A stretch of DNA of 64,000 bases from Hydractinia symbiolongicarpus (Eukaryota > Cnidaria > Hydrozoa > Anthoathecata > Hydractiniidae): positions 17,484,001 to 17,548,000 of the forward strand of contig NC_079876.1 of NCBI RefSeq assembly GCF_029227915.1, read 5' to 3'. Within the stretch, counting starts at the first letter, position 1, and each line of letters starts with the position of its first letter. Shown here piece by piece: positions 1 through 64,000 of this stretch. The notes beneath the pieces are model-generated. The model had not been told where the DNA came from, did no database searches, and saw nothing but the letters and a program-made list of their open reading frames with translations. The position numbers and the translations under genes were made by a program.

Positions 1-8
1 TTCTGTCA

Positions 9-80
9 GCGTCGGTGGTGTGAAGGTTAGTATTGTTGCCTTCCAAGCAATAGATCCGGGTTCCATTCCCGGCCGACGCA
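9..80 (+). pseudogene. tRNA-Gly-like body, type C
   Basis: First copy in the window. A14G loses the usual T8-A14 contact, C23T leaves a G-T wobble in the D stem, and G57C damages both the T-loop and the B box. The acceptor, anticodon arm (TCC) and T stem are intact, so it may be weakly transcribed or dead. Confidence 0.65.
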
Positions 81-283
81 TTTCGCTACTAGATTACATG
101 TTCTAGTCTATTAAATTCAGTACGTGTCGTTTCTTCTTTGAAGATGATTAGGAGGGCAACTTGTTTTTCCAGGAAATTTTTTCAAGTTGTTAAACACAAG
201 GGAAATGCATATAGTACGAAAGATGTCCTTACTTTAATCGCGAAAGTACCTTACCTGCAATAACTCCAACAATTCTGCTGTCT

Positions 284-355
284 GCGTCGGTGGTGTAAAG
301 GTTAGCATTGTTGCCTTCCAAGCAATAGATCCGGGTTCGATTCCCGGCGGACGCA
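284..355 (+). tRNA. tRNA-Gly(UCC), type B
   Basis: All arms match the consensus except the 3' acceptor strand CGGACGC, which leaves a G6-G67 mismatch. It is preceded by TCT instead of TCA, so T-1 could pair with the discriminator A. Confidence 0.75.
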
Positions 356-535
356 TTTGGGCGCTAGATTACATGTTCTAGTCTATCAAATTCAGTACGT
401 GTCGTTTCTACTTTGAAGGTGATTAGGAGGGCAAATTCTGTTTGGACAGTTAATGTTTTCAAGTTGTGAAAACACAAGGGAAGTGCATATGATACGAAAG
501 ATGCCCTTATTTTGATCGCGAAAGTACCTTACCTG

Positions 536-550
536 TAATAACTCCAACAA
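536..550 (+). promoter_or_regulatory. Representative upstream TAATAA...CAACAA element
   Basis: TAATAA lies at -26 to -21 and CAACAA at -17 to -12 relative to the body at 562. The arrangement is kept before most bodies; some monomers read GCAATAA or GTAAAA instead. A/T-rich boxes near -25 and CAA start motifs are known aids to Pol III initiation at tRNA genes in some eukaryotes; the role here is inferred from position only. Confidence 0.45.
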
Positions 551-561
551 TTAACCTGTCA

Positions 562-633
562 GCGTCGGTGGTGTAAAGGTTAGCATTGTTGCCTTCCAAG
601 CAATAGATCCGGGTTCGATTCCCGGCCGACGCA
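562..633 (+). tRNA. tRNA-Gly(UCC), type A reference copy
   Basis: Exact consensus, used as the reference. The 72-nt cloverleaf has a 7-bp Watson-Crick acceptor, GG in the D-loop, T33, anticodon TCC at 34-36, AA at 37-38, and TTCGATT in the T-loop. Both internal Pol III boxes are intact. CCA is not encoded. It would read GGA codons, and by wobble possibly GGG. Closely resembles eukaryotic cytosolic tRNA-Gly(UCC). Confidence 0.92.
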
Positions 634-733
634 TTTGGCTGCTAGATTACATGTTCTAGTCTATTAAATTCAGTACGTGTCGTTTCTACTTTGAAGGTGA
701 TTAGGAGGGCAAATTCTGTTTGGACAGTTAATG

Positions 734-737
734 TTTT
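734..737 (+). terminator. First T4 run downstream of the consensus copy at 562
   Basis: This TTTT in AATGTTTTCAAG is the first run of four T after the body ending at 633, 101 nt downstream. Only TTT follows the body directly. It is a weak candidate terminator. Confidence 0.3.
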
Positions 738-839
738 CAAGTAGTGAAAACACAAGGGAAGTGCATATAATACGAAAGATGCCCTTATTTTGATCGCGAA
801 AGTACCTTACCTGTAATAACTCCAACAATTCTTCTGTCA

Positions 840-911
840 GCGTCGGTGGTGTGAAGGTTAGTATTGTTGCCTTCCAAGCAATAGATCCGGGTTCCATTCC
901 CGGCCGACGCA
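840..911 (+). pseudogene. tRNA-Gly-like body, type C
   Basis: Type C, no private change. Confidence 0.65.
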
Positions 912-1116
912 TTTCGCTACTAGATTACATGTTCTAGTCTATTAAATTCAGTACGTGTCGTTTCTTCTTTGAAGATGATTAGGAGGGCAACTTGTTTTTG
1001 CCAGGAAATTTTTTCAAGTTGTGAAGACACAAGGGAAATGCATATAATACGAAAGATGTCCTTACTTTGATCGCGAAAGTACCTTACCTGCAATAACTCC
1101 AACAATTCTGCTGTCT

Positions 1117-1188
1117 GCGTCGGTGGTGTAAGGGTTAGCATTGTTGCCTTCCAAGCAATAGATCCGGGTTCGATTCCCGGCGGACGCA
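1117..1188 (+). tRNA. tRNA-Gly(UCC), type B
   Basis: Type B with D-loop AAGGG instead of AAAGG. Confidence 0.7.
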
Positions 1189-1393
1189 TTTGGGCGCTAG
1201 ATTTCATGTTCTAGTCTATTAAATTCCGTACGTGTGGTTTCTGCTTTGAAGGTGATTAAGAGGGCAAATTTTTTTGGACAGTTAATGTTTTCATGTTGTG
1301 AAGACACAAGGGAAGTGCATATGATACGAAAGATGCCCTTATTTTGATCGCGAAAGTACCTTACCTGTAATAACTCCAACAATTAACCTGTCA

Positions 1394-1465
1394 GCGTCGG
1401 TGGTGTAAAGGTTAGCATTGTTGCCTTCCAAGCAATAGATCCGGGTTCGATTCCCGGCCGACGCA
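1394..1465 (+). tRNA. tRNA-Gly(UCC), type A
   Basis: Exact consensus. Confidence 0.9.
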
Positions 1466-1671
1466 TTTGGCTGCTAGATTACATGTTCTAGTCTAGTAAA
1501 TTCAGTACGTGTCGTTTCTACTTTGAAGGTGATTAGGAGGGCAAATTCTGTTTGGACAGTTAATGTTTTCAAGTTGTGAAAACACAAGGGAAGTGCATAT
1601 AATACGAAAGATGCCCTTATTTTGATCGCGAAAGTACCTTACCTGTAATAACTCCAACAATTCTTCTGTCA

Positions 1672-1743
1672 GCGTCGGTGGTGTGAAGGTTAGTATTGTT
1701 GCCTTCCAAGCAATAGATCCGGGTTCCATTCCCGGCCGACGCA
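1672..1743 (+). pseudogene. tRNA-Gly-like body, type C
   Basis: Type C, no private change. Confidence 0.65.
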
Positions 1744-1948
1744 TTTCGCTACCAGATTACATGTTCTAGTCTATTAAATTCAGTACGTGTCGTTTCTTCT
1801 TTGAAGATGATTAGGAGGGCAACTTGTTTTTGCCAGGAAATTTTTTCAAGTTGTGAAGACACAAGGGAAATGCATATAATACGAAAGATGTCCTTACTTT
1901 GATCGCGAAAGTACCTTACCTGCAATAACTCCAACAATTCTGCTGTCT

Positions 1949-2020
1949 GCGTCGGTGGTGTAAAGGTTAGCATTGTTGCCTTCCAAGCAATAGATCCGGG
2001 TTCGATTCCCGGCGGACGCA
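1949..2020 (+). tRNA. tRNA-Gly(UCC), type B
   Basis: Type B, T at -1. Confidence 0.75.
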
Positions 2021-2225
2021 TTTGGGCGCTAGATTACATGTTCTAGTCTATTAAATTCCGTACGTGTGGTTTCTGCTTTGAAGGTGATTAGGAGGGCAAA
2101 TTTTTTTGGACAGTTAATGTTTTCATGTTGTGAAGACACAAGGGAAGTGCATATGATACGAAAGATGCCCTTATTTTGATCGCGAAAGTACCTTACCTGT
2201 AATAACTCCAACAATTATCCTGTCA

Positions 2226-2297
2226 GCGTCGGTGGTGTAAAGGTTAGCATTGTTGCCTTCCAAGCAATAGATCCGGGTTCGATTCCCGGCCGACGCA
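2226..2297 (+). tRNA. tRNA-Gly(UCC), type A
   Basis: Exact consensus. Confidence 0.9.
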
Positions 2298-2503
2298 TTT
2301 GGCTGCTAGATTACATGTTCTAGTCTATTAAATTCAGTACGTGTGGTTTGTACTTTGAAGGTGATTAAGAGGGCAAATTCTGTTTGGACAGTTAATGTTT
2401 TCAAGTTGTGAAAACACAAGGGAAGTGCATATAATACGAAAGATGCCCTTATTTTGATCGCGAAAGTACCTTACCTGTAATAACTCCAACAATTCTTCTG
2501 TCA

Positions 2504-2575
2504 GCGTCGGTGGTGTGAAGGTTAGTATTGTTGCCTTCCAAGCAATAGATCCGGGTTCCATTCCCGGCCGACGCA
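2504..2575 (+). pseudogene. tRNA-Gly-like body, type C
   Basis: Type C, no private change. Confidence 0.65.
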
Positions 2576-2780
2576 TTTCGCTACTAGATTACATGTTCTA
2601 GTCTATTAAATTCAGTACGTGTCGTTTCTTCTTTGAAGATGATTAGGAGGGCAACTTGTTTTTGCCAGGAAATTTTTTCAAGTTGTGAAGACACAAGGGA
2701 AATGCATATAATACGAAAGATGTCCTTACTTTGATCGCGAAAGTACCTTACCTGCAATAACTCCAACAATTCTGCTGTCT

Positions 2781-2852
2781 GCGTCGGTGGTGTAAAGGTT
2801 AGCATTGTTGCCTTCCAAGCAATAGATCCGGGTTCGATTCCCGGCGGACGCA
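2781..2852 (+). tRNA. tRNA-Gly(UCC), type B
   Basis: Type B, T at -1. Confidence 0.75.
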
Positions 2853-3057
2853 TTTGGGCGCTAGATTACATGTTCTAGTCTATTAAATTCCGTACGTGTG
2901 GTTTCTGCTTTGAAGGTGATTAGGAGGGCAAATTTTTTTGGACAGTTAATGTTTTCATGTTGTGAAGACACAAGGGAAGTGCATATGATACGAAAGATGC
3001 CCTTATTTTGATCGCGAAAGTACCTTACCTGTAATAACTCCAACAATTATCCTGTCA

Positions 3058-3129
3058 GCGTCGGTGGTGTAAAGGTTAGCATTGTTGCCTTCCAAGCAAT
3101 AGATCCGGGTTCGATTCCCGGCCGACGCA
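3058..3129 (+). tRNA. tRNA-Gly(UCC), type A
   Basis: Exact consensus. Confidence 0.9.
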
Positions 3130-3335
3130 TTTGGCTGCTAGATTACATGTTCTAGTCTATTAAATTCAGTACGTGTGGTTTGTACTTTGAAGGTGATTAA
3201 GAGGGCAAATTCTGTTTGGACAGTTAATGTTTTCAAGTTGTGAAAACACAAGGGAAGTGCATATAATACGAAAGATGCCCTTATTTTGATCGCGAAAGTA
3301 CCTTACCTGTAATAACTCCAACAATTCTTCTGTCA

Positions 3336-3407
3336 GCGTCGGTGGTGTGAAGGTTAGTATTGTTGCCTTCCAAGCAATAGATCCGGGTTCCATTCCCGGC
3401 CGACGCA
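3336..3407 (+). pseudogene. tRNA-Gly-like body, type C
   Basis: Type C; opens the 3050-bp 11-mer repeated at 6386. Confidence 0.65.
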
Positions 3408-3612
3408 TTTCGCTACTAGATTACATGTTCTAGTCTATTAAATTCAGTACGTGTCGTTTCTTCTTTGAAGATGATTAGGAGGGCAACTTGTTTTTGCCAG
3501 GAAATTTTTTCAAGTTGTGAAGACACAAGGGAAATGCATATAATACAAAAGATACCCTTATTTTGATCGCGAAAGTACCTTACCTGTAATAACTCCAACA
3601 ATTCTGCTGTCT

Positions 3613-3684
3613 GCGTCGGTGGTGTAAAGGTTAGCATTGTTGCCTTCTAAGCAATAGATCCGGGTTCGATTCCCGGCGGACGCA
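3613..3684 (+). tRNA. tRNA-Gly body with anticodon TCT, type B
   Basis: Anticodon loop CTTCTAA: C36T turns the anticodon into TCT (Arg). The rest is type B. Its 3050-bp partner at 6663 keeps TCC, so the change arose after that duplication. Confidence 0.65.
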
Positions 3685-3889
3685 TTTGGGCGCTAGATTA
3701 CATGTTCTAGTCTATTAAATTCCGTACGTGTGGTTTCTGCTTTGAAGGTGATTAGGAGGGCAAATTTTGTTTGGACAGTTAATGTTTTCAAGTTGTGAAG
3801 ACACAAGGGAAATTCATATAATTCTAAAGATGCCCTTATTTTGATCGCGAAAGTACCTTACCTGTAAAACTCCAACAACTCTTCTGTCA

Positions 3890-3961
3890 GCGTCGGTGGT
3901 GTAAAGGTTAGCATTGTTGCCTTCCAAGCAATAGATCCGGGTTCGATTCCCGGCCGACGCA
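3890..3961 (+). tRNA. tRNA-Gly(UCC), type A
   Basis: Exact consensus; upstream spacer has GTAAAACTCC in place of GTAATAACTCC. Confidence 0.9.
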
Positions 3962-4167
3962 TTTGGCTGCTAGATTACATGTTCTAGTCTATTAAATTCA
4001 GTACGTGTCGTTTCTACTTTGAAGGTGATTAGGAGGGCAAATTCTGTTTGGACAGTTAATATTTTTAAGTTGTGAAAACACAAGGGAAGTGCATATAATA
4101 CGAAAGATGTCCTTACTTTGATCGCGAAAGTACCTTACCTGCAATAACTCCAACAATTCTGCTGTCT

Positions 4168-4239
4168 GCGTCGGTGGTGTAAAGTTTAGCATTGTTGCCT
4201 TCCAAGCAATAGATCCGGGTTCGATTCCCGGCGGACGCA
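4168..4239 (+). tRNA. tRNA-Gly(UCC), type B
   Basis: Type B with D-loop G19T. Confidence 0.55.
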
Positions 4240-4444
4240 TTTGGGCGCTAGATTACATGTTCTAGTCTATTAAATTCCGTACGTGTGGTTTCTGCTTTGA
4301 AGGTGATTAGGAGGGCAAATTTTTTTGGACAGTTAATGCTTTCATGTTGTGAAGACACAAGGGAAGTGCATATGATACGAAAGATGCCCTTATTTTGATC
4401 GCGAAAGTACCTTACCTGTAATAACTCCAACAATTATCCTGTCT

Positions 4445-4516
4445 GCGTCGGTGGTGTAAAGGTTAGCATTGTTGCCTTCCATGCAATAGATCCGGGTTCG
4501 ATTCCCGGCGGACACA
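4445..4516 (+). tRNA. tRNA-Gly(UCC)-like, type B variant
   Basis: Anticodon loop CTTCCAT (A38T) and 3' acceptor CGGACAC, a second acceptor mismatch. Confidence 0.5.
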
Positions 4517-4721
4517 TTTGGGCGCTAGATTACATGTTCTAGTCTATTAAATTCCGTACGTGTGGTTTCTGCTTTGAAGGTGATTAGGAGGGCAAATTTT
4601 GTTTGGACAGTTAATGTTTTCAATTTGTGAAGACACAAGGGAAATTCATATAATTCTAAAGATGCCCTTATTTTGATCGCGAAAGTACCTTATCTGTAAA
4701 ACTCCAACAATTCTTCTGTCA

Positions 4722-4793
4722 GCGTCGGTGGTGTAAAGGTTAGCATTGTTGCCTTCCAAGCAATAGATCCGGGTGCGATTCCCGGCCGACGCA
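4722..4793 (+). tRNA. tRNA-Gly(UCC), A-like
   Basis: T55G in the T-loop hits the B box. Confidence 0.55.
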
Positions 4794-4998
4794 TTTGGCT
4801 GCTAGATTACATGTTCTAGTCTATTAAATTCAGTACGTGTCGTTTCTTCTTTGAAGATGATTAGGAGGGCAACTTGTTTTTGCCAGGAAATTTTTTCAAG
4901 TTGTGAAGACACAAGGGAAATGCATATAATACGAAAGATGTCCTTACTTTGATCGCGAAAGTACCTTACCTGCAATAACTCCAACAATTCTGCTGTCT

Positions 4999-5070
4999 GC
5001 GTCGGTGGTGTAAAGGTTAGCATTGTTGCCTTCCAAGCAATAGATCCGGGTTCGATTCCCGGCGGACGCA
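4999..5070 (+). tRNA. tRNA-Gly(UCC), type B
   Basis: Type B, T at -1. Confidence 0.75.
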
Positions 5071-5275
5071 TTTGGCCGCTAGATTACATGTTCTAGTCTA
5101 TTAAATTCCATACGTGTGGTTTCTGCTTTGAAGGTGATTAGGAGGGCAAATTTTTTTGGACAGTTAATGTTTTCATGTTGTGAAGACACAAGGGAAGTGC
5201 ATATGATACGAAAGATGCCCTTATTTTGATCGCGAAAGTACCTTACTTGTAATAACTCCAACAACTATCCTGTCA

Positions 5276-5347
5276 GCGTCGGTGGTGTAAAGGTTAGCAT
5301 TGTTGCCTTCCAAGCAATAGATCCGGGTTCGATTCCCGGCCGACGCA
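5276..5347 (+). tRNA. tRNA-Gly(UCC), type A
   Basis: Exact consensus. Confidence 0.9.
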
Positions 5348-5553
5348 TTTGGCTGCTAGATTACATGTTCTAGTCTATTAAATTCAGTACGTGTGGTTTC
5401 TACTTTGAAGGTGATTAGGAGGGCAAATTCTGTTTGGACAGTTAATGTTTTCAAGATGTGAAAACACAAGGGAAGTGCATATAATACGAAAGATGCCCTT
5501 ATTTTGATCGCGAAAGTACCTTACCTGTAATAACTCCAACAATTCTTCTGTCA

Positions 5554-5625
5554 GCGTCGGTGGTGTGAAGGTTAGTATTGTTGCCTTCCAAGCAATAGAT
5601 CCGGGTTCCATTCCCGGCCGACGCA
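5554..5625 (+). pseudogene. tRNA-Gly-like body, type C
   Basis: Type C, no private change. Confidence 0.65.
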
Positions 5626-5830
5626 TTTCGCTACTAGATTACATGTTCTAGTCTACTAAATTCAGTACGTGTCGTTTCTTCTTTGAAGATGATTAGGAGG
5701 GCAACTTGTTTTTGCCAGGAAATTTTTTCAAGTTGTGAAGACACAAGGGAAATGCATATAATACGAAAGATGTCCTTACTTTGATCGCGAAAGTACCTTA
5801 CCTGCAATAACTCCAACAATTCTGCTGTCT

Positions 5831-5902
5831 GCGTCGGTGGTGTAAAGGTTAGCATTGTTGCCTTCCAAGCAATAGATCCGGGTTCGATTCCCGGCGGACG
5901 CA
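5831..5902 (+). tRNA. tRNA-Gly(UCC), type B
   Basis: Type B, T at -1. Confidence 0.75.
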
Positions 5903-6107
5903 TTTGGGCGCTAGATTACATGTTCTAGTCTTTTAAATTCCGTACGTGTGGTTTCTGCTTTGAAGGTGATTAGGAGGGCAAATTTTTTTGGACAGTTAAT
6001 GTTTTCATGTTGTGAAGACACAAGGGAAGTGCATATGATACGAAAGATGCCCTTATTTTGATCGCGAAAGTACCTTACCTGTAATAACTCCAACAATTAT
6101 CCTGTCA

Positions 6108-6179
6108 GCGTCGGTGGTGTAAAGGTTAGCATTGTTGCCTTCCAAGCAATAGATCCGGGTTCGATTCCCGGCCGACGCG
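6108..6179 (+). tRNA. tRNA-Gly(UCC), A-like
   Basis: Consensus except discriminator A73G, which may weaken glycine charging. Confidence 0.75.
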
Positions 6180-6385
6180 TTTGGCTGCTAGATTACATGT
6201 TCTAGTCTATTAAATTCAGTACGTGTGGTTTCTACTTTGAAGGTGATTAAGAGGGCAAATTCTGTTTGGACAGTTAATGTTTTCAAGTTGTGAAAACACA
6301 AGGGAAGTGCATATAATACGAAAGATGCCCTTATTTTGATCGCGAAAGTACCTTACCTGTAATAACTCCAACAATTCTTCTGTCA

Positions 6386-6457
6386 GCGTCGGTGGTGTGA
6401 AGGTTAGTATTGTTGCCTTCCAAGCAATAGATCCGGGTTCCATTCCCGGCCGACGCA
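6386..6457 (+). pseudogene. tRNA-Gly-like body, type C
   Basis: Type C; second copy of the 11-mer. Confidence 0.65.
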
Positions 6458-6662
6458 TTTCGCTACTAGATTACATGTTCTAGTCTATTAAATTCAGTAC
6501 GTGTCGTTTCTTCTTTGAAGATGATTAGGAGGGCAACTTGTTTTTGCCAGGAAATTTTTTCAAGTTGTGAAGACACAAGGGAAATGCATATAATACAAAA
6601 GATACCCTTATTTTGATCGCGAAAGTACCTTACCTGTAATAACTCCAACAATTCTGCTGTCT

Positions 6663-6734
6663 GCGTCGGTGGTGTAAAGGTTAGCATTGTTGCCTTCCAA
6701 GCAATAGATCCGGGTTCGATTCCCGGCGGACGCA
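6663..6734 (+). tRNA. tRNA-Gly(UCC), type B
   Basis: Type B, T at -1; TCC-bearing partner of the TCT copy at 3613. Confidence 0.75.
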
Positions 6735-6939
6735 TTTGGGCGCTAGATTACATGTTCTAGTCTATTAAATTCCGTACGTGTGGTTTCTGCTTTGAAGGTG
6801 ATTAGGAGGGCAAATTTTGTTTGGACAGTTAATGTTTTCAAGTTGTGAAGACACAAGGGAAATTCATATAATTCTAAAGATGCCCTTATTTTGATCGCGA
6901 AAGTACCTTACCTGTAAAACTCCAACAATTCTTCTGTCA

Positions 6940-7011
6940 GCGTCGGTGGTGTAAAGGTTAGCATTGTTGCCTTCCAAGCAATAGATCCGGGTTCGATTCC
7001 CGGCCGACGCA
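6940..7011 (+). tRNA. tRNA-Gly(UCC), type A
   Basis: Exact consensus; upstream spacer has the GTAAAACTCC form. Confidence 0.9.
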
Positions 7012-7217
7012 TTTGGCTGCTAGATTACATGTTCTAGTCTATTAAATTCAGTACGTGTCGTTTCTACTTTGAAGGTGATTAGGAGGGCAAATTCTGTTTG
7101 GACAGTTAATGTTTTCAAGTTGTGAAAACACAAGGGAAGTGCATATAATACGAAAGATGTCCTTACTTTGATAGCGAAAGTACCTTACCTGCAATAACTC
7201 CAACAATTCTGCTGTCT

Positions 7218-7289
7218 GCGTCGGTGGTGTAAAGGTTAGCATTGTTGCCTTCCAAGCAATAGATCCGGGTTCGGATTCCGGCGGACGCA
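7218..7289 (+). pseudogene. tRNA-Gly(UCC)-like, type B variant
   Basis: A G gained and a C lost shift the T-loop to TTCGGATTCCGG, breaking the T-arm and B box. Confidence 0.55.
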
Positions 7290-7494
7290 TTTGGTCGCTA
7301 GATTACATGTTCTAGTCTATTAAATTCCGTACGTGTGGTTTCTGCTTTGAAGGTGATTAGGAGGGCAAATTTTTTTGGACAGTTAATGTTTTCATGTTGT
7401 GAAGACACAAGGGAAGTGCATATGATACGAAAGATGCCCTTATTTTGATCGCGAAAGTACCTTACCTGTAATAACTCCAACAATTATCCTGTCT

Positions 7495-7566
7495 GCGTCG
7501 GTGGTGTAAAGGTTAGCATTGTTGCCTTCCAAGCAATAGATCCGGGTTCGATTCCCGGCGGACGCA
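7495..7566 (+). tRNA. tRNA-Gly(UCC), type B
   Basis: Type B; 3' flank CTT instead of TTT. Confidence 0.7.
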
Positions 7567-7771
7567 CTTGGGCGCTAGATTACATGTTCTAGTCTATTAA
7601 ATTCCGTACGTGTGGTTTCTGCTTTGAAGGTGATTAGGAGGGCAAATTTTGTTTAGACAGTTAATGTTTTCAAGTTGTGAAGACACAAGGGAAATTCATT
7701 AAATTCTAAAGATGCCCTTATTTTGATCGCGAAAGTACCTTATCTGTAAAACTCCAACAATTCTTCTGTCA

Positions 7772-7843
7772 GCGTCGGTGGTGTAAAGGTTAGCATTGTT
7801 GCCTTCCAAGCAATAGATCCGGGTTCGATTCCCGGCCGACGCA
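7772..7843 (+). tRNA. tRNA-Gly(UCC), type A
   Basis: Exact consensus. Confidence 0.9.
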
Positions 7844-8049
7844 TTTGGCTGCTAGATTACATGTTCTAGTCTATTAAATTCAGTACGTGTCGTTTCTACT
7901 TTGAAGGTGATTAGGAGGGCAAATTCTGTTTGGACAGTTAATGTTTTCAAGTTGTGAAAACACAAGGGAAGTGCATATAATACGAAAGATGCCCTTATTT
8001 TGATCGCGAAAGTACCTTACCTGTAATAACTCCAACAATTCTTCTGTCA

Positions 8050-15256: not shown

Positions 15257-15328
15257 GCGTCGGTGGTGTAAAGGTTAGCATTGTTGCCTTCCAGGCAATA
15301 GATCCGGGTTCGATTCCCGGCTGACGCA
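15257..15328 (+). tRNA. tRNA-Gly(UCC)-like, type J
   Basis: Type J with CTGACGC, as at 13316. Confidence 0.5.
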
Positions 15329-48619: not shown

Positions 48620-48659
48620 TTTGGCTGTTAGATTTCATGTTCTAGTCTATTAAATTCAG

Positions 48660-48664: not shown

Positions 48665-48823
48665 GTGGTTCCTACTTAAAAGATGATTAGGAGGACAAAT
48701 TTTTTTGACACTTATTGTTTTCAAGCTGTGAAGACACAAGGGAAATGCGTATAATACGAAGAATACCCTTATCTTGATCGTGAAAGTACCTTACCTGCAA
48801 TAACTCCAACAATTTTGCTGTCA

Positions 48824-48895
48824 GCGTCGGTGGTGTAAAGATTAGCATTGTGGCCTTCCAAGCAATAGATCCGGTTTCGATTCCCGGCCGACGCA
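48824..48895 (+). tRNA. tRNA-Gly(UCC)-like, type H
   Basis: Type H with G19A and T-stem CCGGT. Confidence 0.4.
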
Positions 48896-49100
48896 TTTGG
48901 CTGTTAGATTTCATGTTCTAGTCTATTAAATTCAGTTTTTGTGGTTCCTACTTAAAAGATGATTAGGAGGACAAATTTTTTTTGACACTTATTGTTTTCA
49001 AGTTGTGAAGACACAAGGGAAATGCATATAATTCTAAAGATGCCCTTATTTTGATCGCGAAAGTGCCTTACCTGCAATACCTCCAACAATTCTGCTGTCA

Positions 49101-49172
49101 GCGTCGGTGGTGTAAAAGTTATTATTTTTGTCTTCCAAGCAATAGATTCTGGTTCACTTCCCACTTGACGCA
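49101..49172 (+). pseudogene. tRNA-Gly-like body, type E
   Basis: Type E, GATTCTGG and CTTGACGC form. Confidence 0.75.
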
Positions 49173-49378
49173 TTTGGCTGCTAGATATGATGTTCTAGTC
49201 TATTAAATTCTGTACGTGTGGGTTCTCCTTTGAAGGTGATTAGGAGGGCAAATATTGTTTGGACAGTTAATGTTTTCAAGTTGTGAAGACACAAGGGAAA
49301 TGCATATAATACGAAGGATGTCCTCACTTTGATCGCGAAAGTAGCTTACCTGCAATAACTCCAACAATACTTTTGTCA

Positions 49379-49450
49379 GCGTCGGTGGTGTAAAGGTTAG
49401 CATTGTTGCCTTCCAAGCAATAGATCCGGGTTTGGTTCCCGGCCGACGCA
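49379..49450 (+). tRNA. tRNA-Gly(UCC)-like, type I
   Basis: Type I plus C56T. Confidence 0.42.
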
Positions 49451-49655
49451 TTTCGCTGCTAGATTACATGTTCTAGTCTGTTAAATTGAGTACGTGTCGT
49501 TTCTACTTTGAAGATGATTAGGAGGGCATCTAGTTTTTGCCAGAAAATATTTTCAAGTTGTGAAGACACAAGGGAAATGCATATAATTCTAAAGATGCCC
49601 TTATTTTGATCGCGAAAGTACCTTACCTGTAATAACTCCAACAATACTTCTGTCA

Positions 49656-49727
49656 GCGTCGGTGGTGTAAAGGTTAGCATTGTTGCCTTCCAAACAATAG
49701 ATCCGGGTTCGATTCCCAACCGACGCA
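49656..49727 (+). tRNA. tRNA-Gly(UCC), degenerate A-like
   Basis: G39A (C31-A39 mismatch) and T-stem CCCAA. Confidence 0.42.
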
Positions 49728-49932
49728 TTTGGCTGTTAGATTTCATGTTCTAGTCTATTAAATTCAGTTTTTGTGGTTCCTACTTAAAAGATGATTAGGA
49801 GGACAAATTTTTTTTGACACTTATTGTTTTCAAGTTGTGAAGACACAAGGGAAATACATATAATTCTAAAGATGCCCTTATTTTGATCGCGAAAGTACCT
49901 TACCTGTAATAACTCCAACAATACTTCTGCAA

Positions 49933-50004
49933 GCGTCGGTGGTGTAAAGGTTAGCATTGTTGCCTTCCAAGCAATAGATCGGGGTTCGATTCCCGGCCGA
50001 CGCA
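49933..50004 (+). tRNA. tRNA-Gly(UCC), A-like
   Basis: T-stem CGGGG, one G-G mismatch; upstream TGCA instead of TGTCA. Confidence 0.6.
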
Positions 50005-50209
50005 TTTCGCTACTAGTTTACATGTTCTAGTCTATTAAATTCAGTACGTGTCGTTTCTACTTTGAAGATGATTAGGAGGGCAACTTGTTTTTGCCAGGAA
50101 ATGTTTTCAAGTTGTGAAGACACAAGGGAAATGCATATAATACGAAAGATGTCCTTACTTTGATCGCGAAAGTACCTTACCTGCAATAACTCCAACAGTT
50201 CTGCTGCCA

Positions 50210-50280
50210 CCGGCGGTGGTGTAAAGGTTAGTATTGTTGCCTTCCAAGCAATAGATCCGGTTTCGATTCTGGCCGACCCA
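50210..50280 (+). pseudogene. tRNA-Gly-like body, type D
   Basis: Type D with T-stem 3' strand TCTGG. Confidence 0.75.
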
Positions 50281-50484
50281 TTTAGCTGCTTGTTTTGATG
50301 TTCTAGTCTATTAAATTGTGTACGTGTGGGTTCTCATTCGAAGATGATTAGGAGGGCAACTTGTTTTTGCCAGTGAAAATTTTCAAGTTGTGAAGACACA
50401 AGGGAAATTCATATAATACGAAAGATGTCCTTACCTTGATCGCGAAAGTACCTTGCCTGCAAAACTCCAACAATTCTGCTGTCA

Positions 50485-50556
50485 GCGTCGGTGGTGTAAA
50501 GATTAGCATTGTGGCTTTCCAAGCAATAGATCCGGGTTCGATTCCCGGCCGACGCA
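50485..50556 (+). tRNA. tRNA-Gly(UCC)-like, type H
   Basis: Type H with G19A and C32T. Confidence 0.43.
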
Positions 50557-50761
50557 TTTGGCTGTTAGATTTCATGTTCTAGTCTATTAAATTCAGCTTT
50601 TGTGGTTCCTACTTAAAAGATGATTAGGAGGACAAATTTTTTTTGACACTTATTGTTTTCAAGTTGTGAAGACACAAGGGAAATGCATATAATTCTAAAG
50701 ATGTCCTCACTTTGATCGCGAAAGTACCTTACCTGCAATAACTCCAACAATACTTTTGTCA

Positions 50762-50833
50762 GCGTCGGTGGTGTAAAGGTTAGCATTGTTGCCTTCCAAG
50801 CAATAGATCCGGGTTCGGTTCCCGGCCGACGCA
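50762..50833 (+). tRNA. tRNA-Gly(UCC)-like, type I
   Basis: Type I, no private change. Confidence 0.5.
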
Positions 50834-51039
50834 TTTCGCTGCTAGATTACATGTTCTAGTCTGTTAAATTCAGTACTTGTAGTTTCTACTTTGAAGGTGA
50901 TTAGCAGGGCAAATATTGTTTGGACAGTTGATGTTTTCAAGTTGTGAAGACACAAGGGAAATGCATATAATACGAAGGATGCCCTTATTTTGATCGCAAA
51001 AGTGCCTTACCTGCAATACCTCCAACAATTCTGCTGTCA

Positions 51040-51111
51040 GCGTCGGTGGTGTAAAAGTTATTATTTTTTTCTTCCAAGCAATAGATCCTGGTTCACTTCC
51101 CAGTTGACGCA
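51040..51111 (+). pseudogene. tRNA-Gly-like body, type E
   Basis: Type E in which the internal T run is lengthened to T7. Confidence 0.78.
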
Positions 51112-51316
51112 TTTGGCTGCTAGATATGATGTTCTAGTCTATTAAATTCTGTACGTGTCGGTTCTCCTTTGAAGATGATTAGGAGTGCAACTTGTTTTTG
51201 CCAGAAAATATTTTCAAGTTGTGAAGACACAAGGGAAATGCATATAATACGAAAGATGTCCTTACTGTGATCGCGAAAGTACCTTACCTGCAATAACTCC
51301 AACAATTCTGCTGTCA

Positions 51317-51388
51317 GCGTCGGTGGTGTAAAGATTAGCATTGTGGCCTTCCAAGCAATAGATCCGGGTTCGATTCCCGGCCGACGCA
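51317..51388 (+). tRNA. tRNA-Gly(UCC)-like, type H
   Basis: Type H with G19A. Confidence 0.45.
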
Positions 51389-51593
51389 TTTGGCTGTTAG
51401 ATTTCATGTTCTAGTCTATTAAATTCAGTTTTTGTGGTTCCTACTTAAAAGATGATTAGGAGGACAAATTTTTTTTGACACTTATTGTTTTCAAGTTGTG
51501 AAGACACAAGGGAAATGCATATAATTCTAAAGATGCCCTTATTTTGATCGCGAAAGTACCTTACCTGTAATAACTCCAACAATACTTCTGTCA

Positions 51594-51665
51594 GCGTCGG
51601 TGGTGTAAAGGTTAGCATTGTTGCCATCCAAGCAATAGATCCGGGTTCGATTCCCGGCCGACGCA
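51594..51665 (+). tRNA. tRNA-Gly(UCC), A-like with A33
   Basis: Loop CATCCAA: the near-invariant T33 is A; all stems perfect. Confidence 0.5.
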
Positions 51666-51870
51666 TTTCGCTACTAGATTACATGTTTTAGTCTATTAAA
51701 TTCAGTACGTGTCGTTTCTACTTTGAAGATGATTAGGAGGGCAACTTGTTTTGGCCAGGAAATGCTTCCAAGTTGTGATGACACAAGGGAAATGCATATA
51801 ATACGAAAGATGTCCTTACTTTGATCGCGAAAGTACCTTACCTGCAATAACTCCAACAATTCTGCTGTCA

Positions 51871-51942
51871 GCGTCGGTGGTGTAAAAGTTAGCATTGTGG
51901 CCTTCCAAGCAATAGATCCGGGTGCGATTCCCGGGCGACGCA
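51871..51942 (+). tRNA. tRNA-Gly(UCC)-like, type H
   Basis: Type H with D-loop AAAAG, T55G and acceptor GCGACGC. Confidence 0.38.
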
Positions 51943-52148
51943 TTTGGCTGTTAGATATCATGTTCTAGTCTATTAAATTCAGTACATGTTGTTTCTACTT
52001 TGAAGGTGATTAGGAGGGCAAATTTTGTTTGGACAGTTAATGTTTTCAAGTTGTGAAAACACAAGGGAAGTGCATATAATACGAAAGATGCCCTTATTTT
52101 GATCGCAAAAGTACCTTACCTGCAATAACTCCAACAATTCTGCTGTCA

Positions 52149-52220
52149 GCGTCGGTGGTGTAAAGATTAGCATTGTTGCCTTCCAAGCAATAGATCCGGG
52201 TTCGATTCCCGGCCGACGCA
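52149..52220 (+). tRNA. tRNA-Gly(UCC), A-like
   Basis: G19A only. Confidence 0.6.
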
Positions 52221-52426
52221 TTTCGCTGCTAGATTACATGTTCTAGTCTATTAAATTCAGTACGTGTCGTTTCTACTTTGAAGGTGAGTAGCAGGGCAAA
52301 TATTGTTTGGACAGTTAATGTTTTCAAGTTGTGAAGACACAAGGGAAATGCATATAATACGAAGAATACCCTTATTTTGATCGCGAAAGTACCTTACCTG
52401 CAATAACTCCAACAATTCTGCTGTCA

Positions 52427-52498
52427 TCGTCGGTGGTGTAAAGATTAGCATTGTGGCCTTCCAAGCAATAGATCCGGGTTCGATTCCCGGCCGACGCA
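52427..52498 (+). tRNA. tRNA-Gly(UCC)-like, type H
   Basis: Type H with G19A and G1T, opening the first acceptor pair. Confidence 0.4.
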
Positions 52499-52703
52499 TT
52501 TGGCTGTTAGATTTCATGTTCTAGTCTATTAAATTCAGTTTTTGTGGTTCCTACTTAAAAGATGATTAGGAGGACAAATTTTTTTTGACACTTATTGTTT
52601 TCAAGTTGTGAAGACACAAGGGAAATGCATATAATTCTAAAGATGCCCTTATTTTGATCGCGAAAGTGCCTTACCTGCAATACCTCCAACAATTCTGCTG
52701 TCA

Positions 52704-52775
52704 GCGTCGGTGGTGTAAAAGTTATTATTTTTGTCTTCCAAGCAATAGATTCTGGTTCACTTCCCACTTGACGCA
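52704..52775 (+). pseudogene. tRNA-Gly-like body, type E
   Basis: Type E, GATTCTGG and CTTGACGC form. Confidence 0.75.
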
Positions 52776-52980
52776 TTTGGCTGCTAGATATGATGTTCTA
52801 GTCTATAAATTCTGTACGTGTGGGTTCTCCTTTGAAGGTGATTAGGAGGGCAAATATTGTTTGGACAGTTAATGTTTTCAAGTTGTGAAGACACAAGGGA
52901 AATGCATATAATACGAAGGATGTCCTCACTTTGATCGCGAAAGTAACTTACCTGCAATAACTCCAACAATACTTTTGTCA

Positions 52981-53052
52981 GCGTCGGTGGTGTAAAGGTT
53001 AGCATTGTTGCCTTCCAAGCAATAGATCCGGGTTCGGTTCCCGGCCGACGCA
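52981..53052 (+). tRNA. tRNA-Gly(UCC)-like, type I
   Basis: Type I, no private change. Confidence 0.5.
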
Positions 53053-53258
53053 TTTCGCTGCTAGATTACATGTTCTAGTCTGTTAAATTGAGTACGTGTC
53101 GTTTCTACTTTGAAGGTGATTAGCAGGGCAAATATTGTTTGGACAGTTAATGTTTTCAAGTTGTGAAGACACAAGGGAAATGCATATAATACGAAGGATG
53201 CCCTTATTTTGATCGCGAAAGTGCCTTACCTGCAATACCTCCAACAATTCTGCTGTCA

Positions 53259-53330
53259 GCGTCGGTGGTGTAAAAGTTATTATTTTTGTCTTCCAAGCAA
53301 TAGATCCTGGTTCACTTCCCAGTTGACGCA
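53259..53330 (+). pseudogene. tRNA-Gly-like body, type E
   Basis: Type E, no private change. Confidence 0.75.
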
Positions 53331-53535
53331 TTTGGCTGCTAGATATGATGTTTTAGTCTATTAAATTCAGTACGTGTCGTTTCTACTTTGAAGATGATTA
53401 GGAGGGCAACTTGTTTTTGCCAGAAATAATTTTCAAGTTGTGAAGACACAAGGGAAATGCATATAATACGAAAGATGTCCTTACTTTGATCGCGAAAGTA
53501 CCTTACCTGCAATACCTCCAACAATTCTGCTGTCA

Positions 53536-53607
53536 GCGTCGGTGGTGTAAAAGTTATTATTTTTGTCTTCCAAGCAATAGATCCTGGTTCACTTCCCAGT
53601 TGACGCA
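53536..53607 (+). pseudogene. tRNA-Gly-like body, type E
   Basis: Type E where the octamer partner at 55753 is type H; a local conversion. Confidence 0.75.
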
Positions 53608-53812
53608 TTTGGCTGTTAGATTTCATGTTCTAGTCTATTAAATTCAGTTTTTGTGGTTCCTACTTAAAAGATGATTAGGAGGACAAATTTTTTTTGACAC
53701 TTATTGTTTTCAAGTTGTGAAGACACAAGGGAAATGCATATAATTCTAAAGATGCCCTTATTTTGATCGCGAAAGTGCCTTACCTGCAATACTTCCAACA
53801 ATTCTGCTGTCA

Positions 53813-53884
53813 GCGTCGGTGGTGTAAAAGTTATTATTTTTGTCTTCCAAGCAATAGATTCTGGTTCACTTCCCACTTGACGCA
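53813..53884 (+). pseudogene. tRNA-Gly-like body, type E
   Basis: Type E, GATTCTGG form; third E body in a row. Confidence 0.75.
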
Positions 53885-54090
53885 TTTGGCTGCTAGATAT
53901 GATGTTCTAGTCTATTAAATTCTGTACGTGTGGGTTCTCCTTTGAAGGTGATTAGGAGGGCAAATATTGTTTGGACAGTTAATGTTTTCAAGTTGTGAAG
54001 ACACAAGGGAAATGCATATAATACGACAGATGTCCTTACTTTGATCGCGAAAGTACCTTACCTGCAATAACTCCAACAGTTCTGCTGCCA

Positions 54091-54161
54091 CCGGCGGTGG
54101 TGTAAAGGTTAGTATTGTTGCCTTCCAAGCAATAGATCCGGTTGCGATTCCGGCCGACCCA
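54091..54161 (+). pseudogene. tRNA-Gly-like body, type D
   Basis: Type D with T-loop change GGTTGCGATT. Confidence 0.75.
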
Positions 54162-54365
54162 TTTAGCTGCTTGTTTTGATGTTCTAGTCTATTAAATTGT
54201 GTACGTGTGGGTTCTCATTTGAAGATGATTAGGAGGGCAACTTGTTTTTGCCAGTAAATATTTTCAAGTTGTGAAGACACAAGGGAAATGCATATAATAC
54301 GAAAGATGTCCTTACCTTGATCGCGAAAGTACCTTGCCTGCAAAACTCCAACAATTCTGCTGTCA

Positions 54366-54437
54366 ACGTCGGTGGTGTAAAGATTAGCATTGTTGCCTTT
54401 CAAGCAATAGATCCGGGTTCGATTCCCGGCCGACGCA
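54366..54437 (+). tRNA. tRNA-Gly body with anticodon TTC, A-like
   Basis: Loop CTTTCAA gives TTC (Glu). G1A and G19A; T-arm consensus. Confidence 0.45.
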
Positions 54438-54643
54438 TTTCGCTGCTATATTACATGTTCTAGTCTATTAAATTCAGTACGTGTCGTTTCTACTTTGAAG
54501 GTGAGTAGCAGGGCAAATATTGTTTGGACAGTTAATGTTTTCAAGTTGTGAAGACACAAGGGAAATGCATATAATACGAAGAATACCCTTATTTTGATCG
54601 CGAAAGTACCTTACCTGCAATAACTCCAACAATTCTGCTGTCA

Positions 54644-54715
54644 TCGTCGGTGGTGTAAAGATTAGCATTGTGGCCTTCCAAGCAATAGATCCGGGTTCGA
54701 TTCCCGGCCGACGCA
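54644..54715 (+). tRNA. tRNA-Gly(UCC)-like, type H
   Basis: Octamer partner of 52427, same G1T. Confidence 0.4.
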
Positions 54716-54920
54716 TTTGGCTGTTAGATTTCATGTTCTAGTCTATTAAGTTCAGTTTTTGTGGTTCCTACTTAAAAGATGATTAGGAGGACAAATTTTT
54801 TTTGACACTTATTGTTTTCAAGTTGTTTAGACACAAGGGAAATGCATATAATTCTAAAGATGCCCTTATTTTGATCGCGAAAGTGCCTTACCTGCAATAC
54901 CTCCAACAATTCTGCTGTCA

Positions 54921-54992
54921 GCGTCGGTGGTGTAAAAGTTATTATTTTTGTCTTCCAAGCAATAGATTCTGGTTCACTTCCCACTTGACGCA
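54921..54992 (+). pseudogene. tRNA-Gly-like body, type E
   Basis: Octamer partner of 52704. Confidence 0.75.
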
Positions 54993-55197
54993 TTTGGCTG
55001 CTAGATATGATGTTCTAGTCTATAAATTCTGTACGTGTGGGTTCTCATTTGAAGGTGATTAGGAGGGCAAATATTGTTTGGACAGTTAATGTTTTCAAGT
55101 TGTGAAGACACAAGGGAAATGCATATAATACGAAGGATGTCCTCACTTTGATCGCGAAAGTAACTTACCTGCAATAACTCCAACAATACGTTTGTCA

Positions 55198-55269
55198 GCG
55201 TCGGTGGTGTAAAGGTTAGCATTGTTGCCTTCCAAGCAATAGATCTGGGTTCGGTTCCCGGCCGACGCA
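55198..55269 (+). tRNA. tRNA-Gly(UCC)-like, type I
   Basis: Type I with C50T wobble. Confidence 0.47.
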
Positions 55270-55475
55270 TTTCGCTGCTAGATTACATGTTCTAGTCTGC
55301 TAAATTGAGTACGTGTCGTTTCTACTTCGAAGGTGATTAGCAGGGCAAATATTGTTTGGACAGTTAATGTTTTCAAGTTGTGAAGACACAAGGGAAATGC
55401 ATATAATACGAAGAATGCCCTTATTTTGATCGCGAAAGTGCCTTACCTGCAATACCTCCAACAATTCTGCTGTCA

Positions 55476-55547
55476 GCGTCGGTGGTGTAAAAGTTATTAT
55501 TTTTGTCTTCCAAGCAATAGATCCTGGTTCACTTCCCAGTTGACGCA
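55476..55547 (+). pseudogene. tRNA-Gly-like body, type E
   Basis: Last type E copy in the window. Confidence 0.75.
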
Positions 55548-55752
55548 TTTGGCTGCTAGATATGATGTTTTAGTCTATTAAATTCAGTACGTGTCGTTTC
55601 TACTTTGAAGATGATTAGGAGGGCAACTTGTTTTTGCCAGAAAATATTTTCAAGTTGTGAAGACACAAGGGAAATGCATATAATACGAAAGATGTCCTTA
55701 CTTTGATCGCGAAAGTACCTTACCTGCAATAACTCCAACAATTCTGCTGTCA

Positions 55753-55824
55753 GCGTCGGTGGTGTAAAGATTAGCATTGTGGCCTTCCAAGCAATAGATC
55801 CGGGTTCGATTCCCGGCCGACGCA
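55753..55824 (+). tRNA. tRNA-Gly(UCC)-like, type H
   Basis: Type H with G19A. Confidence 0.45.
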
Positions 55825-56029
55825 TTTGGCTGTTAGATTTCATGTTCTAGTCTATTAAATTCAGTTTTTGTGGTTCCTACTTAAAAGATGATTAGGAGGA
55901 CAAATTTTTTTTGACACTTATTGTTTTCAAGTTGTGAAGACACAGGGGAAATACATGTAATTCTAAAGATGCCCTTATTTTGATCGCGAAAGTACCTTAC
56001 CTGTAATAACTCCAACAATACTTCTGTCA

Positions 56030-56306: not shown

Positions 56307-56377
56307 CCGGCGGTGATGTAAAGGTTAGTATTGTTGCCTTCCAAGCAATAGATGCGGTTTCGATTCCGGCCGACCCA
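56307..56377 (+). pseudogene. tRNA-Gly-like body, type D
   Basis: Type D with G10A and GATGCGG; its 3' spacer carries the 74-nt deletion. Confidence 0.75.
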
Positions 56378-56509
56378 TTTAGCTGCTTGTTTTGATGTTC
56401 TAGTCTAGTCTGTTCTAGTACACAAAAGAAATGCATGTAATACGAAAGATGCCCTTATTTTGATCGCGAAAGTGGCTTAGCTGTAATAACTCCAACAATT
56501 ATCCTGTCA

Positions 56510-61509: not shown

Positions 61510-61581
61510 GCGTCGGTGGTGTAAAGGTTGACATTGTTGCCTTCCAAGCAATAGATCCGGGTTCGATTCCAAGCCGACCCA
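61510..61581 (+). pseudogene. tRNA-Gly-like body, type F
   Basis: Type F with acceptor CCGACCC. Confidence 0.58.
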
Positions 61582-61786
61582 TTTGGCTGTTAGATTTCAT
61601 GTTCTAGTCTATTAAATTCAGTTTTTGTGGTTCCTACTTAAAAGATGATTAGGAGGGCAACTTGTTTTTGCCAGCTAATGTTTTCAAGTTGTGCAGACAC
61701 AAGGGAAATGCATATAATACGAAAGATGTCCTTACTTTGATCGCGAAAGTACCTTACTTGCAATAACTCCAACAATTCTGCTGTCA

Positions 61787-61858
61787 GCGTCGGTGGTGTA
61801 AATGTTAGCATTGTGGCTTTCCAAGCAATAGATCCGGGTTTGATTCCCGGCCGTCGCA
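61787..61858 (+). pseudogene. tRNA-Gly-like body, type G
   Basis: Type G with acceptor CCGTCGC. Confidence 0.62.
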
Positions 61859-62063
61859 TTTGGCTTTTAGATTTCATGTTCTAGTCTATTAAATTCAGTT
61901 TTTGTGGTTCCTACTTAAAAGATGATTAGGAGGACAAATTTTTTCTGACACTTTTTGTTTTCAAGTTGTGAAGACACAAGGGAAATGCATATAATTCTAA
62001 AGATGCCCTTATTTTGATCGCGAAAGTACCTTACCTGTAATAACTCCAACAATACTTCTTTCA

Positions 62064-62135
62064 GCGTCGGTGGTGTAAAGGTTAGCATTTTTGCCTTCCA
62101 AGCAATAGATCCGGGTTCGATTCCGGGCCGACGCA
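62064..62135 (+). tRNA. tRNA-Gly(UCC), A-like with internal T5
   Basis: G27T makes a TTTTT run inside the body; T-stem CCGGG/CCGGG has one mismatch. Confidence 0.45.
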
Positions 62136-62343
62136 TTTCGCTACTAAATTACATGTTCTAGTCTATTAAATTCAGTACGTGTCGTTTCTACTTTGAAGGT
62201 GATTAGGAGGGCGCTAATTTTGTTTGGGCAGTTAATGTTTTCAAGTTGTGAAGACACAAGGGAAATGCATATAATACGAAGGATGTCCTTACTTTGATCG
62301 CGAAAGTACCTTACCTGCAATAACTCCAACAATACTTTTGTCA

Positions 62344-62415
62344 GCGTCGGTGGTGTAAAGGTTAGCATTGTTGTCTTCCAAGCAATAGATCCGGGTTCGG
62401 TTCCCGGCCGACGCA
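62344..62415 (+). tRNA. tRNA-Gly(UCC)-like, type I
   Basis: Type I plus C31T. Confidence 0.47.
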
Positions 62416-62621
62416 TTTCGCTGCTAGATTACATGTTCCAGTCTGTTAAATTCAGTACGTGTCGTTTCTACTTTGAAGGTGATTAGCAGGGCAAATATTG
62501 TTTGGACAGTTAATGTTTTCAAGTTGTGAAGACACAAAAGAAATGCATGTAATACGAAAGATGCCCTTATTTTGATCGCGAAAGTGCCTTACCTGTAATA
62601 ACTCTAACAATTATCCTGTCA

Positions 62622-62693
62622 GCGTCGGTGGTGTAAAGGTTAGCATTGTTGCCTTCCAAGCAATAGATCCGGGTTCGATACCCGGCCGACGCA
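62622..62693 (+). tRNA. tRNA-Gly(UCC), type M
   Basis: T60A only. Confidence 0.8.
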
Positions 62694-62899
62694 TTTGGCT
62701 GCTAGACTACATGTTACAGTCTATTAAATTGAGTACGTGCCGTTTCTACTTTGAAGGTAACTAGGAGGGCAAATTTTGTTTGGACAGTTAATGTTTTCAA
62801 GTTGTGAAAACTCAAGGGAAGTGCATATAATACGAAAGATGCCCTTATTTTGATCGCGAAAGTGCCTTACCTGTCATAACTCCAACAATTCTGCTATCA

Positions 62900-62971
62900 G
62901 CGTCGGTGGTGTAAAGGTTGACATTGTTGCCTTCCAAGCAATAGATCCGGGTTCGATTCCCGGCCGACGCA
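62900..62971 (+). tRNA. tRNA-Gly(UCC), type N
   Basis: Type N, all stems paired. Confidence 0.8.
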
Positions 62972-63176
62972 TTTGGATGTTAGATTTCATGTTCTAGTTT
63001 ATTAAATTCAGTTTTTGTGGTTCCTAGTTAAAAGATGATTAGGAGGACAAATTTTTTTTGACACTTATTATTTTCCAGTTGTGAAGACACAAGGGAAATG
63101 CATATAATACGTAAGATGCCCTTATTTTGATCGCGAAAGTACCTTACCTGCCATAACTCCAACAATTCTGCTGTCA

Positions 63177-63248
63177 GCGTCGGTGGTGTAAAGGTTGACA
63201 TTGTTGCCTTCCAAGCAATAGATCCGGGTTCGATTCCAAGCCGACGCA
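63177..63248 (+). pseudogene. tRNA-Gly-like body, type F
   Basis: Type F, hexamer partner of 61510 with a normal acceptor. Confidence 0.55.
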
Positions 63249-63453
63249 TTTGGCTGTTAGATTTCATGTTCTAGTCTATTAAATTCAGTTTTTGTGGTTC
63301 CTACTTAAAAGATGATTAGGAGGGCAACTTGTTTTTGCCAGCTAATGTTTTCAAGTTGTGCAGACACAAGGGAAATGCATATAATACGAAAGATGTCCTT
63401 ACTTTGATCGCGAAAGTACCTTACTTGCAATAACTCCAACAATTCTGCTGTCA

Positions 63454-63525
63454 GCGTCGGTGGTGTAAATGTTAGCATTGTGGCTTTCCAAGCAATAGAT
63501 CCGGGTTTGATTCCCGGCCGACGCA
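63454..63525 (+). pseudogene. tRNA-Gly-like body, type G
   Basis: Type G; starts the third hexamer cycle. Confidence 0.6.
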
Positions 63526-63730
63526 TTTGGCTGTTAGATTTCATGTTCTAGTCTATTAAATTCAGTTTTTGTGGTTCCTACTTAAAAGATGATTAGGAGG
63601 ACAAATTTTTTTTGACACTTATTGTTTTCAAGTTGTGAAGACACAAGGGAAATGCATATAATTCTAAAGATGCCCTTATTTTGATCGCCAAAGTACCTTA
63701 CCTGTAATAACTCCAACAATACTTCTGTCA

Positions 63731-63802
63731 GCGTCGGTGGTGTAAAGGTTAGCATTGTTGCCTTCCACGCAATAGATCCGGGTTCGATTCCCGGCCGACG
63801 CA
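63731..63802 (+). tRNA. tRNA-Gly(UCC), A-like
   Basis: A38C (loop CTTCCAC); last body in the window. Confidence 0.65.
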
Positions 63803-64000
63803 TTTCGCTACTAAATTACATGTTCTAGTCTATTAAATTCAGTACGTGTCGTTTCTACTTTGAAGGTGATTAGGAGGGCGCTAATTTTGTTTGGGCAGTT
63901 AATGTTTTCAAGTTGTGAAGACACAAGGGAAATGCATATAATACGTAAGATGCCCTTATTTTGATTGCGAAAGTACCTTACCTGTCATAACTCCAACAAT

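Follow-up and report, generated by a model that had tools for sequence, protein, structure and literature searches.

Tandem arrays of tRNA genes are known from several eukaryotes, and the two systems closest to the locus described here are found in Entamoeba and in Phytophthora infestans. In the Entamoeba survey, the repeated units contain 1 to 5 acceptor types, and an array whose unit holds a single Gly-TCC gene is present in all surveyed species except E. invadens (Tawari et al., PMC2652664). The corresponding account of P. infestans gives 11,056 predicted tRNA genes, ~64% of which lie in single-gene arrays, among them 271 tRNA-Cys(GCA) genes in 513-nt units that form one array on one chromosome; tRNA gene numbers in that genome matched read depth (PMC9584435). 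Here we analyze a 64,000-nucleotide stretch of the Hydractinia symbiolongicarpus genome (assembly GCF_029227915.1, contig NC_079876.1, forward-strand positions 17,484,001 to 17,548,000; hereafter the window, numbered from its first base) that consists from end to end (1..64000) of one head-to-tail tandem array of ~232 monomers, with a modal length of 277 bp and a tRNA-Gly(UCC) gene or its remnant in each regular monomer. The array is probably a satellite that originated from one tRNA-Gly(UCC) gene and in which a minority of copies is still gene-like. A preliminary description presented the array as a distinct element and contrasted it with multi-isoacceptor arrays in Entamoeba. As worded, the first statement is not supported, since single-isoacceptor arrays have been published (Entamoeba Gly-TCC and P. 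infestans tRNA-Cys), and the second overlooks the single-gene Gly-TCC array.

The resemblance to these systems is nonetheless incomplete. Like the Entamoeba arrays, the Hydractinia array is long and tandem, and one Entamoeba type is also built on a single Gly-TCC gene; however, the Entamoeba unit copies are mostly uniform within an isolate, with no clear evidence of pseudogenes (PMC2652664), whereas copies in the window differ by 10.6% on average and most fail the intactness test described below. In addition, short tandem repeats separate the genes in E. histolytica and E. dispar (PMC2652664), whereas Tandem Repeats Finder (TRF) reported only periods of 240-278 bp in the window at a score of at least 50. 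The window resembles P. infestans in that hundreds of short units of one isoacceptor form an array on a single chromosome, but the single-chromosome monomeric arrays of that species are described as nearly identical internally, with variants grouped and often near an edge (PMC9584435), while the window is highly divergent and arranged in higher-order repeats. Near-identity of copies, which is typical but not strictly defining of the monomeric arrays in both organisms, does not characterize the window as a whole.

Other known clusters are more distant. A survey of 74 eukaryotes reported clusters of at least 50 tRNA genes (tDNAs) in Nematostella and teleosts, and large clusters are said there to have arisen independently many times in eukaryotes; Nematostella, stickleback and zebrafish have many tDNAs, 65-89% of them clustered (genes and pseudogenes counted together), but adjacent pairs in Nematostella and zebrafish mostly specify different amino acids (PMC2888827). 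Plants have tandem clusters of one or a few isoacceptors, such as tRNA-Pro and Tyr/Ser in Arabidopsis and tRNA-Ile in maize, but with 25-27 tRNA-Pro and 28 tRNA-Ile repeats as compared with ~232 in the window (PMC11700998, PMC12652284), and clusters across 50 plants ranged from 2 to 110 genes (PMC12652284). The human variable number tandem repeat at 1q23.3 is likewise a tRNA-bearing repeat with unstable copy number, but its unit is 7.3 kb long, contains five tRNA genes, is 98% identical between copies and occurs 9-43 times per allele (PMC4041453). Among the matches listed by our literature search, in a body of sources that excludes most subscription journals, we found no published array that is equally diverged, higher-order-repeated and mostly damaged. 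Arrays of tRNA genes themselves are already known, and what may be new here is the combination of a diverged unit, higher-order repeats and damage to most copies.

Array structure and condition of the gene copies

The monomers follow one another without interruption. TRF reported rows with a 277/278-bp period across positions 1-64000, except for a 12-base gap at 56408-56419, and periods of 241/240 bp in two short stretches that correspond to two truncated monomers. A profile search with nhmmer returned 234 matches, all on the plus strand, which became 232 monomers when two split monomers were merged. Spacing between 229 anchored starts (228 intervals) was 277 bp in 126 cases, 278 bp in 73, 276 bp in 14 and some other value in 15. 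Alignment of the consensus monomer by blastn covered 63,980 of the 64,000 bases, with 0 matches on the minus strand, and the 20 uncovered bases were confined to the left window edge and two rearranged monomers, indicating that no foreign sequence lies between units. These results bear out the preliminary description of 232 head-to-tail monomers of ~277 bp, on a single strand and with nothing else between them. A regular monomer comprises a tRNA-Gly(UCC) gene or remnant of ~72 bp and a spacer of ~205 bp. All monomer-level analyses below used 225 of the ~232 monomers; the 7 located in four irregular stretches, which have deletions or adjoin a monomer that does, were set aside. Three of the seven (at 15257, 32544 and 37772) are called as tRNAs by ARAGORN.

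The consensus monomer opens with a full cloverleaf. ARAGORN identified 198 tRNAs in the window (191 Gly(TCC), 4 Arg(TCT) and 3 Glu(TTC)) and 0 in five base-shuffled control windows, and the Rfam tRNA model RF00005 gave 116 + 93 = 209 matches at its gathering score. No other Rfam family reached its gathering score anywhere in the window, and a permissive look at positions 500-1400 yielded others below threshold only. Judged by general features of tRNA genes, namely the lack of an encoded CCA and the presence of A and B boxes, the tRNA looks eukaryotic and nuclear. The anticodon reads UCU in copies at 3613, 26175, 28946 and 38843 and UUC in copies at 18139, 20356 and 54366, which ARAGORN assigns to Arg and Glu, respectively. 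All seven are Gly-type copies bearing additional tRNA changes, and they are therefore probably pseudogenes; the tRNA parts of the copies at 18139 and 20356 are identical. Hence the proposal that the array encodes one isoacceptor holds for 191 of the 198 calls and fails for the seven monomers with anticodon mutations.

A call by ARAGORN does not imply an intact gene. We applied a strict test, based on general rules of tRNA structure, that requires all 21 stem pairs together with 15 invariant or near-invariant positions, and 60/225 monomers passed. Mispairs were absent from 85 copies, while in 118 the 14 fixed positions were all retained and the fifteenth was a purine. The tRNA part matched the consensus exactly in 35/225 monomers and was one base off in 49/225. 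TTT directly follows the discriminator base in 223/225. Of the internal promoter sequences for RNA polymerase III (Pol III), the consensus B and A boxes were exact in 131 and 147 of the 225 copies, respectively, and in 56 and 59 of the 60 intact ones. Pol III may still transcribe this intact minority, which keeps a canonical tRNA.

Higher-order repeats and local homogenization

Intact and degenerate copies were previously described as mixed. Both kinds are indeed present, but they do not form a flat mixture; instead, the copies occur in order, in nested higher-order repeats, of which 3-mers, 4-mers and 10-mers are the clearest (Table 1). At lags of 3, 4 and 10 monomers, divergence locally falls to 1.1-2.5%, as compared with 10.6% for random pairs, and elsewhere in the array periodicity is weaker, at 5, 7, 8 and more monomers. 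The 3-mer unit is composed of one intact gene, one copy with a stem mismatch and one copy of a damaged class marked by A14G; lag-3 divergence is 1.7% over the 12 monomers from position 9, 3.4% from 2226 and 4.4% from 4445. Similarity is strongly dependent on distance: between copies 6-10 monomers apart, 8.1% of pairs are less than 2% divergent, as compared with 0.03% for copies 121-160 monomers apart and 0 beyond. Divergence is also lower in the left half of the array (8.4%) than in its right half (11.9%).

A long array with multi-monomer periodicity, in which near-identical copies occur only at short distances, has the properties of a satellite, and this nested order and short-range similarity are what repeated short-range unequal exchange would produce. 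The monomers of alpha-satellite are likewise organized in multi-monomer repeats and locally homogenized. The Hydractinia array differs from alpha-satellite in that its monomer carries a tRNA gene and in that, using the CENP-B box pattern as generally given, we found 0 matches on either strand of the window.

Constraint on the tRNA gene and origin of the array

On a tree built from full monomers, the number of Fitch changes per site was 3.35 for the tRNA and 3.43 for the spacer (p = 0.76), and the tRNA total of 241 changes fell inside the range of equal-size spacer blocks (201-304); the ratio of tRNA to spacer changes was 0.95 on branches with intact parents and 1.00 on branches with damaged parents, though these and all other tree counts are blurred by recombination. 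Most changes in stems were disruptive: pairing was lost in 45 of the 61 distinct variants that alter one side of a stem and retained in 16 (26%), where a random single change would retain it in 24 of 126 cases (19%), and 2 of the 5 two-sided variants still pair. Furthermore, spacers are least diverged in copies whose tRNA is intact (9.7 differences in exact copies versus 14.8 overall; correlation 0.55), so that intactness tracks youth, as expected if intact copies are just the younger ones. With mutations about equally frequent in tRNA and spacer, and with most stem changes breaking pairs, individual copies appear to experience little or no constraint, and the array seems to evolve mainly as satellite DNA in which intact genes form a minority. 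Together with the higher-order repeats and the 60 of 225 copies that have a complete cloverleaf and its invariant bases, this agrees with the characterization of the locus as part gene family and part satellite.

Several observations weigh against this interpretation. The tRNA columns deviate less from the consensus than do 72 columns drawn at random from the 277 (mean difference 4.8% versus 6.6%; one-sided p = 0.036), and 35 copies have the exact tRNA, where random column sets average 4.5 exact copies and reach 52 at most. This lower deviation could be a sign of weak selection or of better spreading of intact units, although spacer columns 169-252 are conserved almost as well as the tRNA. On a tree built from spacers only, the root tRNA is not intact, changes per site are 4.49 for the tRNA and 3.31 for the spacer (p = 0.10), and the ratio is 1.11 after intact parents and 1.64 after damaged ones, a difference that could reflect some constraint. 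The passing copies occupy 7 of 8 bins of 8 kb, but the seventh bin has none among its 28 monomers. Finally, the first run of four Ts (T4) downstream of the 60 intact copies starts 40-154 nt away and never closer than 40 nt (100 nt in 18 copies, 80 in 18, 83 in 8, 154 in 7, 82 in 4, 40 in 3, and 56 and 79 in 1 each), which speaks against simple, tight termination of these gene-like copies. The median over all 225 monomers is 81 nt, and some runs are nearer, for example at 12 nt in 13 copies. If termination requires a T4 run, primary transcripts of intact copies would have long trailers. The conserved spacer block at columns 169-252 lies upstream of each next tRNA, varies little between copies and is possibly promoter-related or just homogenized.

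Some of the same observations would be expected of a high-dose gene array under selection, in which many Gly-UCC genes supply tRNA and damaged copies hitch-hike. The spread of the 60 intact copies over 7 of 8 bins, the lower deviation of the tRNA columns and the smaller ratio of tRNA to spacer changes below intact parents on the spacer tree all favor such an array, but on the full tree the tRNA changes as frequently as the spacer, most stem variants break pairs, and no intact copy has a T4 run inside 40 nt, so we regard selection for gene dose as unlikely. An alternative role for the tRNA sequence would be chromosomal: the array could be an independent element, for instance a satellite of centromeres, heterochromatin or boundaries, whose tRNA boxes recruit TFIIIC and Pol III, with box-bearing copies favored for chromatin or replication rather than for glycine tRNA. 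We consider that improbable. A tRNA head joined to an unrelated 205-bp body also resembles, in outline, a tRNA-Gly-derived short interspersed element (SINE), and the array might consist of head-to-tail SINE multimers, with the tRNA as Pol III head and the spacer as body. However, this head is a complete canonical tRNA whose acceptor stem is perfect, and the monomers inspected have no poly(A) or simple-repeat tail. We regard a SINE origin as very doubtful. That the assembler inflated a short array seems more remote still, as 196/225 monomers are distinct at the mean pairwise divergence given above, and ordered nested repeats together with a more divergent right half are unlike simple copying errors; the true length of the array may nevertheless differ from that in the assembly.

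The satellite origin that we favor could have proceeded as follows. One nuclear tRNA-Gly(UCC) gene with ~205 bp of flanking DNA would have been duplicated in tandem, and the long array would have grown by unequal crossing-over or local gene conversion. Repeated short-range exchange may then have spread blocks of several monomers, giving rise to the nested higher-order repeats that we observed. The units now appear to be largely under satellite dynamics, with mutations, within the limits of the tree counts, about equally frequent in the tRNA part and in the spacer, so that most copies are damaged. That intact genes persist is probably due to exchange, which copies recent intact parents, and not to selection on each copy.

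Irregular monomers, other content and implications

Coordinates of the array, its higher-order repeat zones and representative monomers are collected in Table 1.

Table 1. Features of the tRNA-Gly(UCC) array, in window coordinates
Feature	Position	Strand	Details
Tandem array of ~232 head-to-tail ~277-bp monomers	1..64000	+	continues past both window ends
3-mer higher-order repeat zone, interrupted	1..8000	+	832-bp unit
Damaged tRNA, example of the A14G, C23T, G56C class	9..80	+	53.7 bits; 10 copies with exactly these changes; lies in 3-mer higher-order repeat
Copy with one acceptor-stem mismatch, C66G class	284..355	+	15 copies with this change alone
Example monomer with consensus tRNA	562..839	+	tRNA-Gly(UCC) 562-633, spacer 634-839; RF00005 66.6 bits; ARAGORN
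Irregular unit	15257..15641	+	cut-short monomer plus internally deleted fragment
4-mer higher-order repeat zone	18139..22573	+	lag-4 divergence 2.5%, 12 monomers
10-mer higher-order repeat zone	22574..28668	+	lag-10 divergence 1.1%, 12 monomers
Monomer whose tRNA gene is missing ~32 bases at its start	32818..33061 (start approximate)	+
Another monomer with a 5' truncation of this kind	38046..38288 (start approximate)	+
Longest stretch without a passing tRNA	47436..56029	+	31 analyzed monomers
203-bp monomer	56307..56509	+	internal spacer deletion

The four irregular anchored stretches (15257-15641, 32544-33061, 37772-38288 and 56307-56509) contain internal or 5' deletions. The 5' truncations of the tRNA gene at ~32818 and ~38046 lie ~5.2 kb apart, and this pair is consistent with one deletion that was copied by block exchange.

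One spacer that we folded (634-839) was no more structured than shuffled sequences (z 1.19), which lends no support to a structured RNA hidden there. Strong CpG decay was not found in the window, where the observed/expected ratio of CpG is 0.94; C>T changes per site numbered 3.08 at CpG and 2.03-2.55 in other contexts. Nine open reading frames (ORFs) of at least 100 aa were predicted (translation table 11, closed ends only), and coding for protein is not supported, since all nine are on the minus strand and each is longer than a monomer. Six of 172-178 aa lie within 31543-42795, each extending across about two monomers, and probably arose by chance. A plasmid search returned one haloarchaeal record, covering 26% of the query at 79.6%, which we take to be a match to the tRNA, although no annotated feature is listed at that position. 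There were no relatives among phages, no viral contigs with the exact tRNA or spacer pattern, and no bacterial or archaeal genome contigs with the spacer pattern.

Together, these data describe tRNA genes caught between gene family and satellite within one continuous stretch of DNA, in which intact and damaged subfamilies have been co-amplified in the same higher-order unit. They also carry a warning for genome annotation, as damaged copies in such an array can inflate tRNA gene counts (198 ARAGORN calls as compared with 60 strict passes). As a natural experiment, the array could show what maintains arrays of this kind: the dose of tRNA genes, Pol III chromatin or nothing more than unequal exchange.

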